A stretch of 64,000 nucleotides of DNA, taken from contig NW_026516269.1 in assembly GCF_025602895.1 (NCBI RefSeq), forward strand, positions 124,001 through 188,000, given 5' to 3'. The DNA is from Polychytrium aggregatum (lineage: Eukaryota > Chytridiomycota > Chytridiomycetes > Polychytriales). Numbering within the stretch: the stretch's first letter is position 1; the number at the start of each line of letters is the position of its first letter. The notes beneath the pieces were generated by a model that searched no databases, was not told where the DNA came from, and saw nothing but the letters and a program-made list of their open reading frames with translations. Positions 1-52,842 of the stretch are shown in pieces. Both the position numbers and the translations under genes were made by a program.

Positions 1-3000
1 CGGGTCAGCGATTGCTTACCCGAACCGCCTACGCCAACGAGTAGACAGTGACCGCGCTTCATGCGAATCACACGGTGGATTCGCGTCAAATGATCGAGCG
101 CATCGTCGAAGAGCACCAGGTTCATCTTGTTGAACTTGTCGTTGTACTCCTCCAGGATCTCCTGGAAGATCGATCGGATGGCGGCAAAGTCGAGGAGATC
201 TTCGTACAGCCGGACGGACTCTTCCTGCAGCGCATAGCGAAAGTCTCCAAAGAGAGACGGATTGCGGGTGACGTATTCCTCGTCTGCTTCAAAGTTGTCG
301 AGGATCTGGCGATTGAGCAGCTTGTTGACGTAGTCCTTGTCTGCATCGGTTACGAGGCGGTCGTGGAAGACTCTAAGGGACTCGTTGCGCCAAAGGCGGA
401 CAAATTGCTTGGAGGTTTGAAAGTGGTCCGGAGTCGACTGACACAGCCCTTCGTACACACGCGAGATGTCGCGCAGGTTGAAGATATAGTGGAACTTTGA
501 TGGCGTTGGCATCAGTGTCTTGGATATCTCGGCAAAGATCTTCAGGGTGAGTGCCGTCAGCTTGTCCGCAGCGCGACGCACGTCGTCCGAGAACGGCGCT
601 GTATGCCCCTGGATGATGCCCGAGTAGATGCGGATGAGCGATGCGTCCTTGGGGAATGTGATGTTGAAGACCGAGAACAGCGAGGCAAAGCGGGGGTCGA
701 TGTCGTTGCGGCCGCCACCTGGGGTGCCCATGGATCCGAGACACTGCACGTCTTTGAGATACTTCCAGTTCAGCTCCTTTCCGCGGTCATAGAGTCCGCC
801 GCGCTCGATCAGCAGCTTGAGCAGCGCAATGGGCTGCTGTGTGCCGTAGGTGTCCTTGGCGGGCATGTTGAGATCGTCTATGAACACAATCAGTCTCTTG
901 CCCGCCGCTGGGCCGTACGTGTCCTTGGTGCGCTTCTCGACATTGACCTCCAAGTTACGCTGCACATCAAGCGAGGTTGTGCGCGACGAGAAGCTTATGT
1001 TGAGAATCAGGTTCTTGTCCGAGGGCAGAACTCGCAGATAGTTCTGGACCGTCACTGTCTTGGAGGTGCCCACCTCACCAACAAGCAATACTGGCTTCTT
1101 GATGCCAATGAGCTTCTCCAGCAGCCAGGTGTGGCGCACGGTGTCGAGCGTGGGCACCAGAATCTCGTGGAATGAGCATGATCGGCTGTGCTCGTATGCA
1201 GGCACGTAGTTGTTCCAGGGCACCCACTGCAGCTCAGAGGCATCAAAGTGGTAGTCGTACAAAGATTTGTCGTTACCGGGCAGCTGTCCGAGTACCACCG
1301 CCGCGGCCGTGTGCACCAGCGGGAGCTCCGAGAGCTTCTTGACGGCATCCGAGAACTTGATGCGGTCGTCTTCGAGCAAGCTGGCGCCAACCGACCATAT
1401 GAGGGACTGGATAAAGACACCCTCGACAATGGCTTCCTGAGCGAGCTGCTTTGGGTCTGTCAGCTGCATCTCGAGGATGGAGCACAGCTGCATCACGGTG
1501 TTGAGGCCGGTGACGGGTATCACGCGCTTGAGAGGATCGCCCATGAAGCCCTGGAAGGTGCCCTCCAGCACATACTCAACCAGCGATGGCACATACTTAT
1601 TGAAGAACTTCATGAGGCATTCGACCTTGGTTGGACGGCTGGCCAGCCACTTTTGGTAATACGGTCGGTAGCCCAGGTTCTTTGGGTCCATGTAAACCAT
1701 GCCGCATCTCGAGACCGTGGCCGGGCTGGCGTATTGAAGGTCACCAACCTCAAAAAGCAGTGCTACATGCTTCTGCAAGCGGATGCGCTCGCCGTTGGGC
1801 AGTGTCAGCAGCTTGTTGTCGTCCATGACCGAGTTCATGTTTTCGACCCAGACGGCATCAACGTCGCCATCAAAGACAATGTACTTGCGTTCCTTGCGAT
1901 CGGTGGGTTTGTTGGTCTCTCTGAAGATGTTGGAGAGCAGACCGTCGGTCCAGTCGCGCGTGGTCTGGTCCAACACACCGTACAGCTCTGCGACGGTAAC
2001 GGCTTTGGGGTTGAGGATGTACAGCTTGGTGGGGAGTCCCAGCTTGGTCTGGGCCTTGGCAAGTGTGTCGATCACCACGGTCTTTCCGCCGCCGGCCGGG
2101 CCGACCACCATCGAGGTGTGGCGGGTGAGCATGGTTTCGTACAGCTGCACGACCTTGTCGACCTGCTCAGGGACCAGGATGTATCCAGAGTCGCGAAGGA
2201 TTTCCTCGACGGCATCGTTGAAGCTCGGATAGCGGACACGTGGGCAATCGAGACCTGGAAACAGGTCAGTGATGAGACCGAGGAAGAGTGGCACGTCTTC
2301 AAAGACAAACTTTGGGAGATTCATATCGCGCAGGGCCCGCATGAGCACAACGTCTTCATTGAGGTCCGGGGACCCGCGCTTGAGCGAGCCCGCCATGACA
2401 AGCACGGACTTGAGCGCTCGTAGTCCAAAGTCGTAGTGGTGCTGCTTGGAAAGCTGCCCCTTTGCAAGCTTGTACAGAACCACCATTTTCTTGGCCAGAC
2501 TCTTGGCCAAGGTGAAGCCTTCCGAAAAGAGCATGATCTCACAGATGAGCTCGAGATCTGGAACGGCCATGACAACGGGCCTGAAGAGCGCTTTGAGGTT
2601 GTCGGGAAGCTCGGTGCGGCCGGCATAGCCAGGATTCATGGTGATGAAGATGCCTGTTTTTTTGTCGAGCGAGATCTCGTTGCCCTCGAACTGAAAACGC
2701 TTCAGGCCAGCGACGAGGGCGTTCTGGATGGTCTTGATCTGTGCCGAGATCACAGAGAGCACAGCCAGCTCGATTCGGTTGAACTCGTCAAAACATCCCC
2801 AGGCGCCTGTTTGCACGAGCCCAGCAAAATTCTGCCCCATGGCGCGGTAGTCCATGCCGTCACCGCAGTTGGTGACCATGCACAGCAGCCCCATTGCCTT
2901 GGCCAGATCCTTGACGGTCTCTGTCTTGCCGGTTCCAGCCGGGCCAGCTGGGGCCCCTCCGAGCTTCATCGAAAGTGCTTGTGTGAGCGTTAGATAGCAT

Positions 3001-6000
3001 CGGTCTGTCAACGGAGTGATCACCAGTCGGCCGTTGAGCCCCATGTACTCGTATCCATAGTCAAAGACGCCGTTACACTGGCGCACGATCAATTCGTCTG
3101 TCTGTCTGTCCCAATAGAACCGCAGCTGCGACTCCCACTCGAACTCTCCCTCGTCTGTGATCGAGTCGCGCACAAAGCGGTCGACAATGTCGCGAGCGTG
3201 AACATCGATAATGATCTGGGAGTTGAGTTTCTTTCGATCGTTCGAGCTCAGGTCGGAACGCACTTTGACAACAAGTTCCTCCATTTGCTCAGCGAGTGAC
3301 TTTGAATACTTCTTCATCGCCAGCTTGTTGCCGAGCCGGATCTTGCGGAAGACATCCTCGACTTCCCATGTCCACCACACTTGCGAGCCAGCAAGGGCCA
3401 CCATGCCCTGGTAAGCCAGGATCCAGGGAAGGCGCTCCATGTCGACGTAGTGGAAGATGGCTTCCTTGTGCAGCGTGCGATTGGTTTTTTTCATCTCAGA
3501 CTCGACGGCAAGCATCCACTCCTCGACGCGGCCCTCGATGGGCACGACGCGCCTGAACTCGAGGCACTCGCCCTCGGACGACGACATGCCGATGACTGCC
3601 TTTTCGTTCTTGCCCGTTCCAAAGGTCAGGCGCAGGATGTTGTCGAACATCTTGATGATGTGCTCCTGCACGTTTTTGGGGTCGTGACTTCCCAGGATCG
3701 ACAGCAGCTCTTCGTCCGAGATGAAGAAGAACCGCGGGAAGGCGTTTCGCTTTGACTCGAGATAGTCCGAGAGAGACTTTTGGCACGATTCGAGCTCGTT
3801 CGACAGGTTTTGCAGGAGCTGAAGGCGACCCTCGGCGTTACATGCCTCCATGACGGAGGTGTGCTTGGCCGTGTCGCTCATGAGCTTCTTAAAGGTCTTG
3901 TCGATGCGGTCGAACCTGGCTGCCTCCTCCGGAAGCTGCTGGCGGATATCGCCCGAGCCTATAAAGATCGACTCGAGATACATCCATTTGCGCTGGACAA
4001 TCATCCAGACGTCGATGACTTCGCCAATGTGCGACAGGATCTTCTCCCACTGCTGCACCGAAGGCAAGAAGGCCGTTACGAAGCGAGAGGCTCCCATCGA
4101 CTGGAGCGACATGGCGTTGTCGTCCAGGGCAGTCGTGATTTCATCGACGGCGCCAAGGATGAAGCCGCGATCCTCGGTGCCCTTGGTGTACTTGACGACA
4201 ACAAATTTTGTGTTGCGCCAGGTGTTTTCAATGTCACGGATGCCGTTTTCGATACTGAGCTCCTTCATAGCCCCGGACACAATCTCGCCGATGGCCTCGG
4301 AGTGTTCGTGCAAGTTCATTGAGAAGAGCTTCTCGAGGGTAAAGATCTCGGGGTTCATGTCAAAGCTTTTGCCGGTGATCTCCATCAAACGCTTCCAGTG
4401 GCGGTCGCGAAGGGCCTCGTTTTTGAGGTCGGCAAAGAGTGGGATCGAGTCCTTGAAGGTGACGATCTTTTCGGCAACGACGTTGTAAGGCGGTAGTTGC
4501 TTGAGCTCCTTGGGCATCTTCTTGAGCCTCGACGAGAACGTCTCGACACCCTTGTTGAGGACGTTGATGTCGAGGTTCGACCACAGCGTCGTCGACCATC
4601 CGTTGATGGCGTCCTTGACCTCGGTGTAGAGCTCGTAGATCTTGTCGAGCTCCTTGATTTCGCTCTCGATCTCAAACAGCTCTGGGTACGAGGTGATGAT
4701 CAGGTTGAACAGCTTCTCGGCCTTGACCAGGTGCTCGCGCTTGGCTAGAAAGCCAGCGACCATTTCCTTGGACTGCTTCAGCAACTCGAGACCGTGATCC
4801 ATGTCGAGGTCCATGGCGCCGGGGCCGTTGACGGTGAACTCCTCGCGCGCACGCTTGAGCTCGGCCTTGAACTCTTTGACCTGGTTCTGGGTCGTGTCGG
4901 TGAACTTTGCCTTGACCGGGATCAGCGAGTCGTCAACGCGGCGCGCGGTCTCAAGCATCTCGGCCCACTTGACCGGCAGCTCGTTGGCCATCGCAATCTC
5001 GTCCTCCGAAATCTCAATGTTGTACATTCGGAAGATCCGATAGCCTTCAATGACGTCCTGGTATTTGACTTCGACTTCCTCTGTTGCGCCGCGGATCTCG
5101 GCGATCACGTTGAGGACAAAGGTCAGGTCGTCGAGGGTGGTGGGTGTTCGCTGGAGATCTTCGTGGTACTTTTGCATCCTCTCGGTGAGCTCGGTGAGTC
5201 CTTCCTTTGTTTTGATATTGAGATGCTTGCCTTTGGGCAATGTCGCCACCGCACACCAACGCTGTCAGTCTGATGATCAGCGTGCTGGAGTGCCCGGGCA
5301 AATGCGCGGCAGCAACCGAGACACACTCACCTATAGATACTACCCAGCTGGTGGCCTCGCTATGAATCGCCGCTTGAAGTGGCAGTGAAATGACCCGAAT
5401 AAATCCAATGTCTTTGACGGTGACCTGATTCTCGACATCGACAGCGAGTTTGGAGTAGAACGCCAACTTTTCGTCATAGTTGATGATTGTGGGCTTTTTC
5501 TGGGCAAACTTTTCCAGCGTGATAACCTAGGAGGTTCCGAAGCCAAGTGGTGAGCCCATATTCACCCAAGACAACCGGTCCCTTCCCTTGACCAGAGGCT
5601 ACAATGGTCCGCTCAGACCTCCGCTCACAAAACGCACGTGGAGCCGCGAGCACAGGATCACAGAGCTCCGCCGGCGCCGACGATACAACAGGGACGATCT
5701 TGATCGGGTATCAGGGCCCCCAAACAAGTCGTCGAACTGCCAATGCCTCTGCTACATCGGCACGCACCTTGTCCACTTTCCACAGCGGGCGGTACTTGCG
5801 CCATGTGTCGAGGTAGCCGGAAAGCTCTCCAAAGGTCCTTGTGACGGTGGTGTTGAGCTGCGAGACCAAGGCTATGATTTTTTGGTTGCAAACCACGTCG
5901 GAATGGAAGCTAAAGACCATCGGCTCTTCGTCTTCGCTGATTTTCTGAGGCGGCGTGATGTGGCAGGTGCCGTTCTGCCAGCGATGAAACTGCTTGGTCG

Positions 6001-51084: not shown

Positions 51085-51170
51085 TACAGGCAATCCAATA
51101 AAAAACGGGACACCCGGGTTTTTGACCATTCATCGAATATTTTGTTACCCAATGTTATCGCGCGCTGGCC

Positions 51171-51800
51171 ATGACCATTCGCCACACATCCGACTTTCGC
51201 ACCGCTGCATTGCGATGCTACGCCCTCATCCATAGCCTGCGTAAGGTTGCCTCCATATTCAGTGTATCCAAGAGCACCATCCATCGATGGCACCGAGGAT
51301 GCAAGCTGGATGACCCATCCCGGGTCCCAGCTCGCAGATCCACTTTCTTCGAGCAGGCATGTCCAGTCATTCGCACCCTGATTGAACAGGACCCGTTCCA
51401 GACTGGTCCTGTGCTGCGGTGCAAGCTCGAGTCCATCCTCCAGAGGAAAGTATCACTCTCACTCTGCCACACTGCCATCCACCGAGCAGGTCTCTCACAC
51501 AAGAGGGCAACACACCTCTACAAGTCCAAGCGACTGGATGAGCGAGTGGCACAGTTCAGGGACCAGGTCCGCTCCATCGACCCGCGGCGATTCGTTTTTG
51601 TCGATGAGACAGGGATCAGGAGATCCATTTTCCCTCTCTACGGATACTCGCCGAAGGGTGCTCCGCTTCGCCAGCGCAATCATATGAAGCACAAGTCTCT
51701 CTCGGCTGCATTTGCCATCAACCACTCTGGTGTGCTGCATCGCATGTACCAAGGGCTATGCATCCAGCCCTCGGAGGCAGCGGTTTGCTCAGTACTTTGA
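51171..51800 (+). pseudogene. Truncated Tc1/mariner (IS630-like) transposase
   Basis: The open frame starts 55 bp inside the left terminal repeat. Residues 1-60 are a helix-turn-helix DNA-binding region (LRKVASIFSVSKSTIHRW). A second HTH-like segment follows (QRKVSLSLCHTAIHRAGLSH). Residues about 138-165 contain the first catalytic Asp (RFVFVDETGIRRS) and the GYSPKGAPLRQ motif typical of IS630/Tc1 enzymes. The second Asp and the final Asp/Glu of the DDE/D triad are absent. After INHSGVLHR the frame leaves transposase sequence and ends at 51800. The protein could still bind the TIRs but should not cut DNA. Confidence 0.82.
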
Positions 51801-52098
51801 GCAGTTCGAGCACCACCGACGCCGTCCCAATCACCCTCATGGAAGCGTCAAGGTGGCCTCGACGAACGAGTTCAACACCTCGCAAGTGTGCTCCAAGTGC
51901 CTGGAGCCAGTTCGGTTGGAAGGACTCGATGCGCCCAGGGTTGCGAATTCCCACTTTGTCAGGAGCTGCAAGAATCCCAGCTGCCGGACAGTGTGGAATC
52001 GCGACGTCAATGCGGCGCGCAACATGATCACAGTGTGCAAGTCGATTGTGGAGATCGGAGAGCGACCGGCGGTTTTCACTCGGAGGCTGCCAAAGTGA
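51720..52098 (+). pseudogene. C-terminal remnant of a Fanzor (eukaryotic TnpB-like) nuclease
   Basis: Read in the +1 frame relative to the transposase and in phase to the stop at 52098. The segment begins about CTKGYASSPRRQRFAQYF. It continues with STNEFNTSQVCSKC and, later, CKNPSC then NRDVNAARNM. The TS-x-x-CxxC and CxxxxC pairs form the zinc ribbon, and RDxNAARN is the last RuvC motif (RuvC-III Asp) of TnpB, Cas12 and Fanzor proteins. RuvC-I, RuvC-II and the RNA-binding N-terminal part are missing. Fanzors are RNA-guided nucleases found inside several eukaryotic transposon types, mariner among them. This fragment cannot be an active nuclease by itself. Confidence 0.82.
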
Positions 52099-52196
52099 TC
52101 TGTTTTATTTCTTGTGGCTTTGCTTGACGCAAGCACAGCACATACTACATGTTCATGGAAACGGCTATGTTGTCCCGTTTTTTTCTGAATAAAGTG

Positions 52197-52228
52197 TATA
52201 GCGAGCTCGTTTTGAAACGGGACACCTT
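52197..52228 (+). repeat. Extra TIR end abutting the mariner-Fanzor element
   Basis: Directly after (or overlapping) the right end of the element lies TATAGCGAGCTCG followed by TTTTGAAACGGGACACC. It points rightwards and matches the outer ends of the short elements at 34526 and 60449 (TATAGCG..TTTTG/CAAAATG..AAACGGGACACC). No partner end was found to its right, so it may be a solo or nested end. Confidence 0.6.
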
Positions 52229-52842
52229 CACACACAGATGACTTGCGTGACTTGTTGAATCAGACGACTTTCGTCGGCCCGAACTCCATAAAATCCGCTC
52301 GCCGAGGTCCTCCCGGCAATATTGCTCTTTGCCCTGCGTCTTTCTCCCTCATCCCAGATATGTCGTCTTGCTCTGGCCTGCAGCGACTGTATCTGCAGTG
52401 ACTCGCTGGTCCCCGTCGTGCCCACTCACTCCATGCATCTCCCTCACAGGGAAATGACTTGACCCACTTGAGCGAGTGTGCGATATGATCCGACTACGCC
52501 GTGTTTGTCCGAATGAGGCGATGTTTCATTTTTTCTTCATCACACTGTATCACGGCCGATGGAGCAGCACTGAGACATCCCAAAGGTTTCGTTCTATCGG
52601 GGGACAGCTCTCCGCCAATCAGACATGGCTCCGATTCCTCTACCTCCGAGGCCAGTGGGAGTCGATAGAATTCACCCTGTCGTCATCCGCTGACCTCACC
52701 TCGCCCGATCGACACCAATCGGTCCTCTCATCGTGCTCAGCCGATCTCGTCCTCTCCCCGAGACTGAGCACTTGCAGCCACCACTTCCCGTCAACTTCTT
52801 GACGAGCGTCGCGAGCTTGACAACATCGGCTTCTTCTCGAAC
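52229..52842. promoter_or_regulatory. Upstream region of the class C GPCR gene
   Basis: About 0.6 kb between the transposon end and the first GPCR Met. No supported gene; open frames lack motifs. The promoter presumably lies here, which would place the transposon within about 650 bp of the GPCR start. Confidence 0.4.

Follow-up and report, generated by a model that had tools for sequence, protein, structure and literature searches.

What is a chytrid transposon copy in which the start of a mariner-type transposase runs, out of frame, into the end of a Fanzor, and how did it come to occupy its present site? The copy lies in a 64,000-nucleotide stretch of Polychytrium aggregatum DNA (contig NW_026516269.1, positions 124,001 to 188,000; hereafter, the window), and its history bears on the question of what Fanzors, which are eukaryotic proteins related to CRISPR nucleases, do for eukaryotic transposons. 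We think it probable that the copy is a non-autonomous derivative of a Fanzor1-carrying IS630/Tc1-mariner transposon and that it has spread partly by in-place overwriting, with a role as a source of guide RNA being predicted.

The TA-to-TA bounded unit of 1.11 kb (Table 1) consists of the first 665 and the last 449 nt of a 3.5–3.76-kb IS630/Tc1-mariner-type transposon. Its transposase frame is open from 51126 to 51800 (Met at 51171). The encoded fragment matches the NCBIfam IS630 profile with an E-value of 1.5e-15 and 57 bits, a score that falls short of the curated cut-off of 100, as would be expected for a fragment; its matches to Pfam DDE_3 (E = 0.0022) and HTH_23 (E = 0.0013) are both below gathering. 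The Fanzor-end frame (51688–52098) is in +1 relative to the transposase frame and matches Pfam Cas12f1-like_TNB above the cut-off (E = 2.9e-10), which places this C-terminal fragment in TnpB/Fanzor by profile. From 51751 on, the frame aligns with parental Fanzor residues 676–790; these residues alone are left, and a complete RuvC is absent. The frames and the IS630 and TNB matches bear out the preliminary description of a 1.1-kb unit, bounded by terminal inverted repeats (TIRs), that joins a transposase start to a Fanzor end out of frame. Two boundaries had to be corrected: the unit ends at 52198, not 52200, and the transposase-derived sequence, although it begins at Met 51171 as described, runs to 51749 rather than to about 51735. 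The deletion junction was placed by alignment to the parent at 51749/51750, where 2,630 bp are gone (numbering of the full-length copy L012) and no microhomology is seen.

Table 1. Coordinates of the features of the deleted Fanzor-mariner copy (positions in the window).
Feature	Position	Strand	Basis
Whole element, internally deleted Fanzor-mariner copy with TA target-site duplications	51085..52198	+	Sequence; junction common to 16 places
Host T preceding TA, within the near-invariant T-TA flank on the left (predicted target-adjacent motif)	51084	+	172 T vs 6 non-T at exact left ends; host-borne in one unfilled-homolog comparison
Left TIR, CAGGCAATCCAATAAAAAACGGGACA	51087..51112	+	Sequence; 338 left ends at ≤3 mismatches
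IS630/mariner transposase N-terminal part: HTH and first catalytic Asp (FVDET)	51171..51749	+	Open frame and profile matches
Deletion junction CATGTAC/CAAGGG; parental bases 666-3295 absent	51749..51750	+	Alignment to parent
Fanzor C-terminal 115 codons and stop: zinc ribbon, WNRDVNAARNM; +1 frame vs transposase	51751..52098	+	Pfam match and parent alignment
Right-end 168 nt, candidate omega RNA scaffold, hairpins within 52115-52198	52031..52198	+	Kept in four examined deleted size classes; role inferred from the account in PMC10432273
Right TIR, reverse complement CACTTTATTCAGAAAAAAACGGGACA	52171..52196	+	Sequence; 278 right ends at ≤3 mismatches
Right flank, guide if the scaffold is transcribed	52199..52218	+	Inferred from the Fanzor/TnpB layout as outlined in PMC10432273 and PMC10711439

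A DNA search of the assembly (64,678,306 bases, 418 contigs) with the window unit gave 42 matches (40 candidates scored), of which 16 cross the junction, 24 cover the first ~660 nt only, and 2 are short. Ten of the 24 left-part matches were fetched, and in all ten the right part of the unit follows further on, with 3.50–3.76 kb between the same ends. Genome-wide, 278 right and 338 left ends were found at up to 3 mismatches, counts that include haplotype duplicates and may include relatives, and a reversed control gave 0. The full-length parent that had been anticipated, with transposase and then Fanzor inside the same ends, thus exists in high copy. As in other IS630/Tc1-mariner transposons, the parent has a DDE/D transposase, TIRs, and a TA duplication; TA borders the element on both sides in all 24 entries (23 distinct sites) and follows each of 48 right ends.

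In L012, the transposase (310 aa) carries D145, D221, and E256, a DD34E triad, and matches Pfam DDE_3 (E = 6e-22) and NCBIfam IS630 (E = 2e-34) above the cut-offs. The second protein (790 aa) is Fanzor1-like and matches Pfam TNB above the cut-off (E = 2e-8). The Fanzor1 signature, given as D-X(125,275)-[TS][TS]XX-C4 zinc finger-X(5,50)-RD (PMC3627910), is found in it as D539, a gap of 178, TSQVC with C4, a gap of 5, and RD. The DPG at RuvC-I, described together with an alternative Glu as a further mark of Fanzor1 (PMC10711439), is present as GIDPG (537–541). When PDB sequences were searched with a profile of the L012 Fanzor, SpuFz1 of Spizellomyces punctatus was the sole match at E up to 10 (E = 0.054, last ~50 residues only). 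As a single sequence, the whole protein had no match at E 0.01, and its C-terminal part matched SpuFz1 at E = 0.19, with two LaTranC chains scoring slightly better (0.12–0.15). An AlphaFold model based on eight near-identical Fanzors had a mean pLDDT of 33.8 and was too poor for use. Judged by its sequence, the parental protein would be a Fanzor1-type nuclease, for which RNA-guided cleavage is predicted.

At 14 full-length places (12 sites), the Fanzor frame is complete in eight, the transposase frame in three, and both in two, and a fourth place keeps the transposase triad in a shorter frame. Variants shared among 10 full copies have a pN/pS of 0.31 in the Fanzor and 0.19 in the transposase, which suggests purifying selection on both; singleton variants give higher values (0.38 and 0.60, respectively). 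Recurrent transposase deletions (about 871–1010, 659–1010, and 844–918) occur in L014–L017, L108, L011, and L111, often with the Fanzor frame open. Nucleotide diversity of the full copies peaks at 0.07–0.14 in L012 positions 2418–2620 and 1701–1900 (Fanzor codons ~380–450 and ~145–210) and is about 0.002–0.04 toward the element ends; in the high-diversity stretches, the alternative amino-acid cassettes QERVRD, RDRDIN, and QERDVN are mixed among copies. An Rfam scan of two full-copy loci gave no match, and a tblastn search found no relatives on viral contigs.

The preliminary description attributed the window copy to a deletion of the middle of both genes. Both middles are indeed gone, but the deletion is not private to this copy: the junction CATGTAC[C/T]AAGGGC occurs at 16 places, all exact although up to 3 mismatches were allowed, and at one more place (C377) the alignment runs through the junction at 95 per cent. 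The 16 places represent about 13 sites, since six of them form three haplotype pairs (C124/C401 and two sites on C384/C399). Because the junction has no microhomology and its C and T variants are each common to many sites, we infer one founding deletion followed by multiplication. Further deleted classes of the family measure 384, 312, and 283 bp, and a diverged ~300-bp ghost family gave 41 matches (best 40 of 902 candidates scored), of which 20 were fetched. Like a ghost, the window copy has the same ends as its relatives, no complete Fanzor, and the right-end scaffold region. One rearranged derivative place on C1 (L029) is without an intact right end. At L023 and L041 (C399:35609 and C384:73198), the derivative lies inside the leader of a sister element, beside a Fanzor-like start, and on the other haplotype the left end there is a chimera, as though a repeat deletion had brought two left ends together. 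The right flank of the window copy (52197–52318) matches 27 other places at 71–93 per cent, haplotype duplicates included; it contains GAAACGGGACACC, which is similar to the inner terminal repeat, and is probably an older related repeat.

The family's insertion sites share a one-sided flank. Among the 178 left ends that match exactly over 29 bases (haplotype duplicates included), TA is preceded by T in 172 and by another base in 6, whereas T precedes 14 per cent of TAs in the window on both strands. The right side has no matching preference (A 4, C 16, G 13, and T 15 after TA at 48 distinct ends). One-sidedness of this sort is what a target-adjacent motif read by a Fanzor would be expected to produce. 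Where the TA can be read in diverged ghosts and sister ends, T comes before it in 17 of 18 cases, scored by eye and leaving out one haplotype duplicate and three degenerate ends. The copy at L023 is inserted into a repeat, and 12 unfilled homologs of that repeat were aligned with the site: rejoined with a single TA, the site aligns ungapped there, and the homologs read TTC (one TCC) against the site's TTA, none having the TA itself. At this one site, therefore, the duplication is TA and the left T is host-borne. At L072 (1480–1860) and L073 (1300–1560), main-family and sister elements abut with one terminal TA in common, an arrangement that represents insertion of one element at the terminal TA of another.

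The T-TA flank could be either the target-adjacent motif (TAM) of the Fanzor or an asymmetric target preference of the transposase itself, unconnected with the Fanzor, and the two readings are about as likely. The transposase reading, to which we give slightly less than an even chance, agrees with the differences between the two ends outside AAAACGGGACA and with the adherence of ghosts that have the same ends to T-TA, and the present data do not part insertion preference from later selection. Yet a TA-targeting transposase dimer is expected to have a symmetric target, and the SpuFz1 element is described as having a conserved CA before its left repeat and as requiring a CATA motif for cutting (PMC10432273). 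That precedent makes T-TA a reasonable predicted TAM here, and both families have conserved bases just outside the left repeat, CA in Spu-1 (PMC10432273) and T in P. aggregatum; from the CATA motif, the Spu-1 repeat itself would start with TA.

In known Fanzors, the guide RNA is reported to be encoded at the right end of the element (PMC10432273). At the right end, the four deleted classes retain 449, 216, 168, and 168 nt; at the left, as little as 99 nt remains. Folding of the last 84 nt of L012 gives two hairpins (z = -2.5, matched by 4 of 200 shuffles), and other lengths of the same end give z = -3.1 (145 nt) and -1.7 (104 nt), whereas seven sister right ends folded no better than shuffles. 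A conserved structure was also sought by covariation among 24 right-end sequences; the signal was slight (eight pairs, two with compensatory changes, covariation term -0.21) and too weak to claim one. No selection was seen on the candidate guide-RNA region of the derivatives, in which diversity is 0.028 compared to 0.031–0.033 in the adjoining dead Fanzor fragment. The guide-RNA role of the right end is thus predicted from position and precedent, the measured signal not being strong. Both transposon ends, and the right end in full, persist in the derivative, which would also have been mobilised in trans by the parental transposase and may still yield, from its right end, a guide RNA usable by Fanzor made elsewhere. 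Such a guide would direct cutting of insertion-free chromosomes at T-TA plus the right-flank sequence.

Eight of the 13 derivative sites have an identified second haplotype; three of these carry the derivative on both haplotypes, and five are discordant. At the window's own site (C383:175085–176198), the matching contig C113 bears a full-length version (453163–456828), and the derivative likewise faces the full-length class at C9/C79, C93/C375, and C135/C373 and the 312-bp class at C168/C362. The partners on C113 and C362 were read end to end, and the other three on one side, for about 1.2 kb each. For four of the five remaining derivative sites (all but L029) and for one 312-bp site (L047), a search for the other haplotype gave nothing beyond the site's own contig. 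C113 and the other matching contigs look like the genome's other haplotype; the assignment uses contigs of an assembly without reads, in which polishing errors inside repeats could inflate element differences.

At the window site, the two haplotypes differ at 8 of 2824 flank positions and at 22 of 1114 element positions. Over the five discordant pairs, there are 15 differences in 8,120 flank positions (not counting a gap of nine positions in C135/C373 or the short second alignment of C9/C79) and 68 in 3,207 positions of the shared element parts (2.1 per cent), close to the mean distance of 2.5 per cent (range 0.7–4.0) between derivatives at unlinked sites. Ten pairs pooled give 23/14,250 for flanks and 189/14,287 for elements, an 8-fold excess (p about 8e-34, sites treated as independent); C399/C384b was excluded, as its left end is chimeric with a sister element. 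Differences are clustered in three full/full pairs as well (27/3760, 58/3615, and 16/1527, with flanks at 0/282, 0/436, and 1/448), two of them not significant alone, and C168/C362, C369/C335, and C30/C79 are weak or non-significant taken alone. C124/C401 is an ordinary allelic pair with no excess (element 4/1114, flank 6/3002). Among the 208 allelic differences counted across 11 pairs, both variants recur in two or more further copies for 140, and there is no difference for which neither variant does so. This pattern is what gene conversion among dispersed copies leaves. RIP-type hypermutation was considered as a source of the element divergence and rejected, as the substitutions are mixed in kind; they were tallied on a multiple alignment upset by the rearranged copy L029, and later comparisons used reference-anchored alignments instead.

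Because the full-length version on C113 is nearly as distant from the window copy as unrelated copies are, we infer that the derivative owes part of its spread to exchange at occupied sites, where it overwrote other versions or was itself overwritten by them. The route would be ectopic gene conversion or gap repair following breakage within or beside the element. The Fanzor itself may drive the swapping, which we regard as unlikely: guides from any copy, including derivatives and ghosts, would target T-TA at empty or broken alleles, repair would copy any family member at hand, and sites would remain occupied on both haplotypes even as the versions in them change, with the derivatives acting as guide-bearing parasites of the drive. 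TnpB of bacterial IS200/IS605 elements is described as a gene drive, in which the nuclease is programmed by the insertion site and attacks element-free copies (PMC11870625). The feature shared with the present family is the predicted insertion-site programming, whereas a drive effect in P. aggregatum is hypothetical. No exact empty allele was found among 23 sites (best 40 of 521 candidates scored). Copies differ from each other by 2.5–3.8 per cent on average, far more than haplotype flanks (about 0.2 per cent), so the insertions probably predate the haplotype split, and the lack of empty alleles in this scored set says little about homing; conversion blurs this dating.

Spread by plain transposition, in which a derivative that arose once was dispersed like a MITE by the parental transposase and discordant sites are independent insertions into the same TA, agrees with the intact ends, TA duplications, and T-TA sites. 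It is already disfavoured, and we consider it improbable: five of the eight two-haplotype sites would need two elements at the same TA in the same orientation, and patchy differences occur in full/full pairs as well. It is just as hard to credit that the same deletion recurs at identical breakpoints, each derivative forming in situ from its own full-length resident. Four derivative sites do have a full-length-class copy on the other haplotype, and other breakpoints do recur in the family (99, 3577, and 1008–1011). However, beyond the microhomology-free junction and its two widespread variants, the shared part of derivative and resident differs by 1.6–3.2 per cent where flanks differ by 0.1–0.3 per cent. 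Moreover, in all four derivative/full pairs, the derivative is closer to 5–17 of 24–46 other copies than to its own allele; C168/C362 alone, whose members are nearest or second-nearest to each other, could fit recurrence. That the fused frames, both open and recognisable, form a functional chimera, for example via a programmed frameshift, is exceedingly improbable, as the transposase is without its second Asp and Glu, the Fanzor is without RuvC-I, and the transposase fragment shows three stop variants among 12 derivatives; under the preferred reading of a non-autonomous derivative, the out-of-frame fusion would have no function of its own.

MITEs and internally deleted Tc1-mariner copies have a shared junction and intact ends and are moved in trans; the ends of the present family also hold a candidate guide-RNA scaffold. 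To our knowledge, Spu-1 is the best-studied Fanzor1 family. Like Spu-1 and its ghosts, the P. aggregatum family combines a high-copy Fanzor1 element with many Fanzor-less relatives that have related ends and a right-end scaffold (PMC10432273), and the Spizellomyces ghost scaffolds are reported to work with SpuFz1 (PMC10432273). The preliminary description counted mariner-like elements among Fanzor carriers and pointed to a characterised chytrid example. Mariner-like carriers are described in PMC3627910, but SpuFz1 is not a mariner precedent, because the account of Spu-1 in PMC10432273 reports no transposase within the inverted repeats. In P. aggregatum, by contrast, a complete DD34E transposase and a Fanzor occur in one element (compare PMC10432273), and the deletion classes (1.11 kb, 384, 312, and 283 bp) link the parent to ghosts. 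Closer in composition are PGv-1, PUl-1, and PUl-4, which have a mariner-like transposase, Fanzor1, TIRs, and a TA duplication (PMC3627910); the cases described there include single-copy and virus-borne ones, whereas P. aggregatum has hundreds of ends and versions that can be compared between haplotypes.

The element belongs to a known mariner-Fanzor kind, and the in-place version replacement and the one-sided T-TA flank deserve specialist attention. A literature search of titles and abstract openings, with most subscription journals outside its coverage, found neither allelic version replacement of Fanzor elements nor a T-TA rule. One genome, with two haplotypes assembled in places, holds the transposase, the Fanzor, several deletion classes, and ghosts together, and offers TTA as a predicted target-adjacent motif, native guide sequences, and measurable version replacement at fixed sites.

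Other Fanzor-like sequences are present in the assembly. Three sister places fetched as possible full-length second Fanzor elements had no long Fanzor frame. A zinc-ribbon family search (best 150 of 663 candidates scored) placed 57 of the 150 in open frames of at least 750 aa, and matches with quite different scores and frame lengths probably represent other Fanzor/TnpB families. A stronger TnpB/Fanzor zinc-ribbon match (E = 8e-18, 477-aa frames) forms an inverted pair on C124 (405504–405698, minus strand, and 410594–410788, plus strand). A second inverted pair with the same E-value lies on C379 (92828–93022, minus strand, and 97918–98112, plus strand), 5 kb apart as in C124; the two pairs are probably the two haplotypes of one locus of another family.
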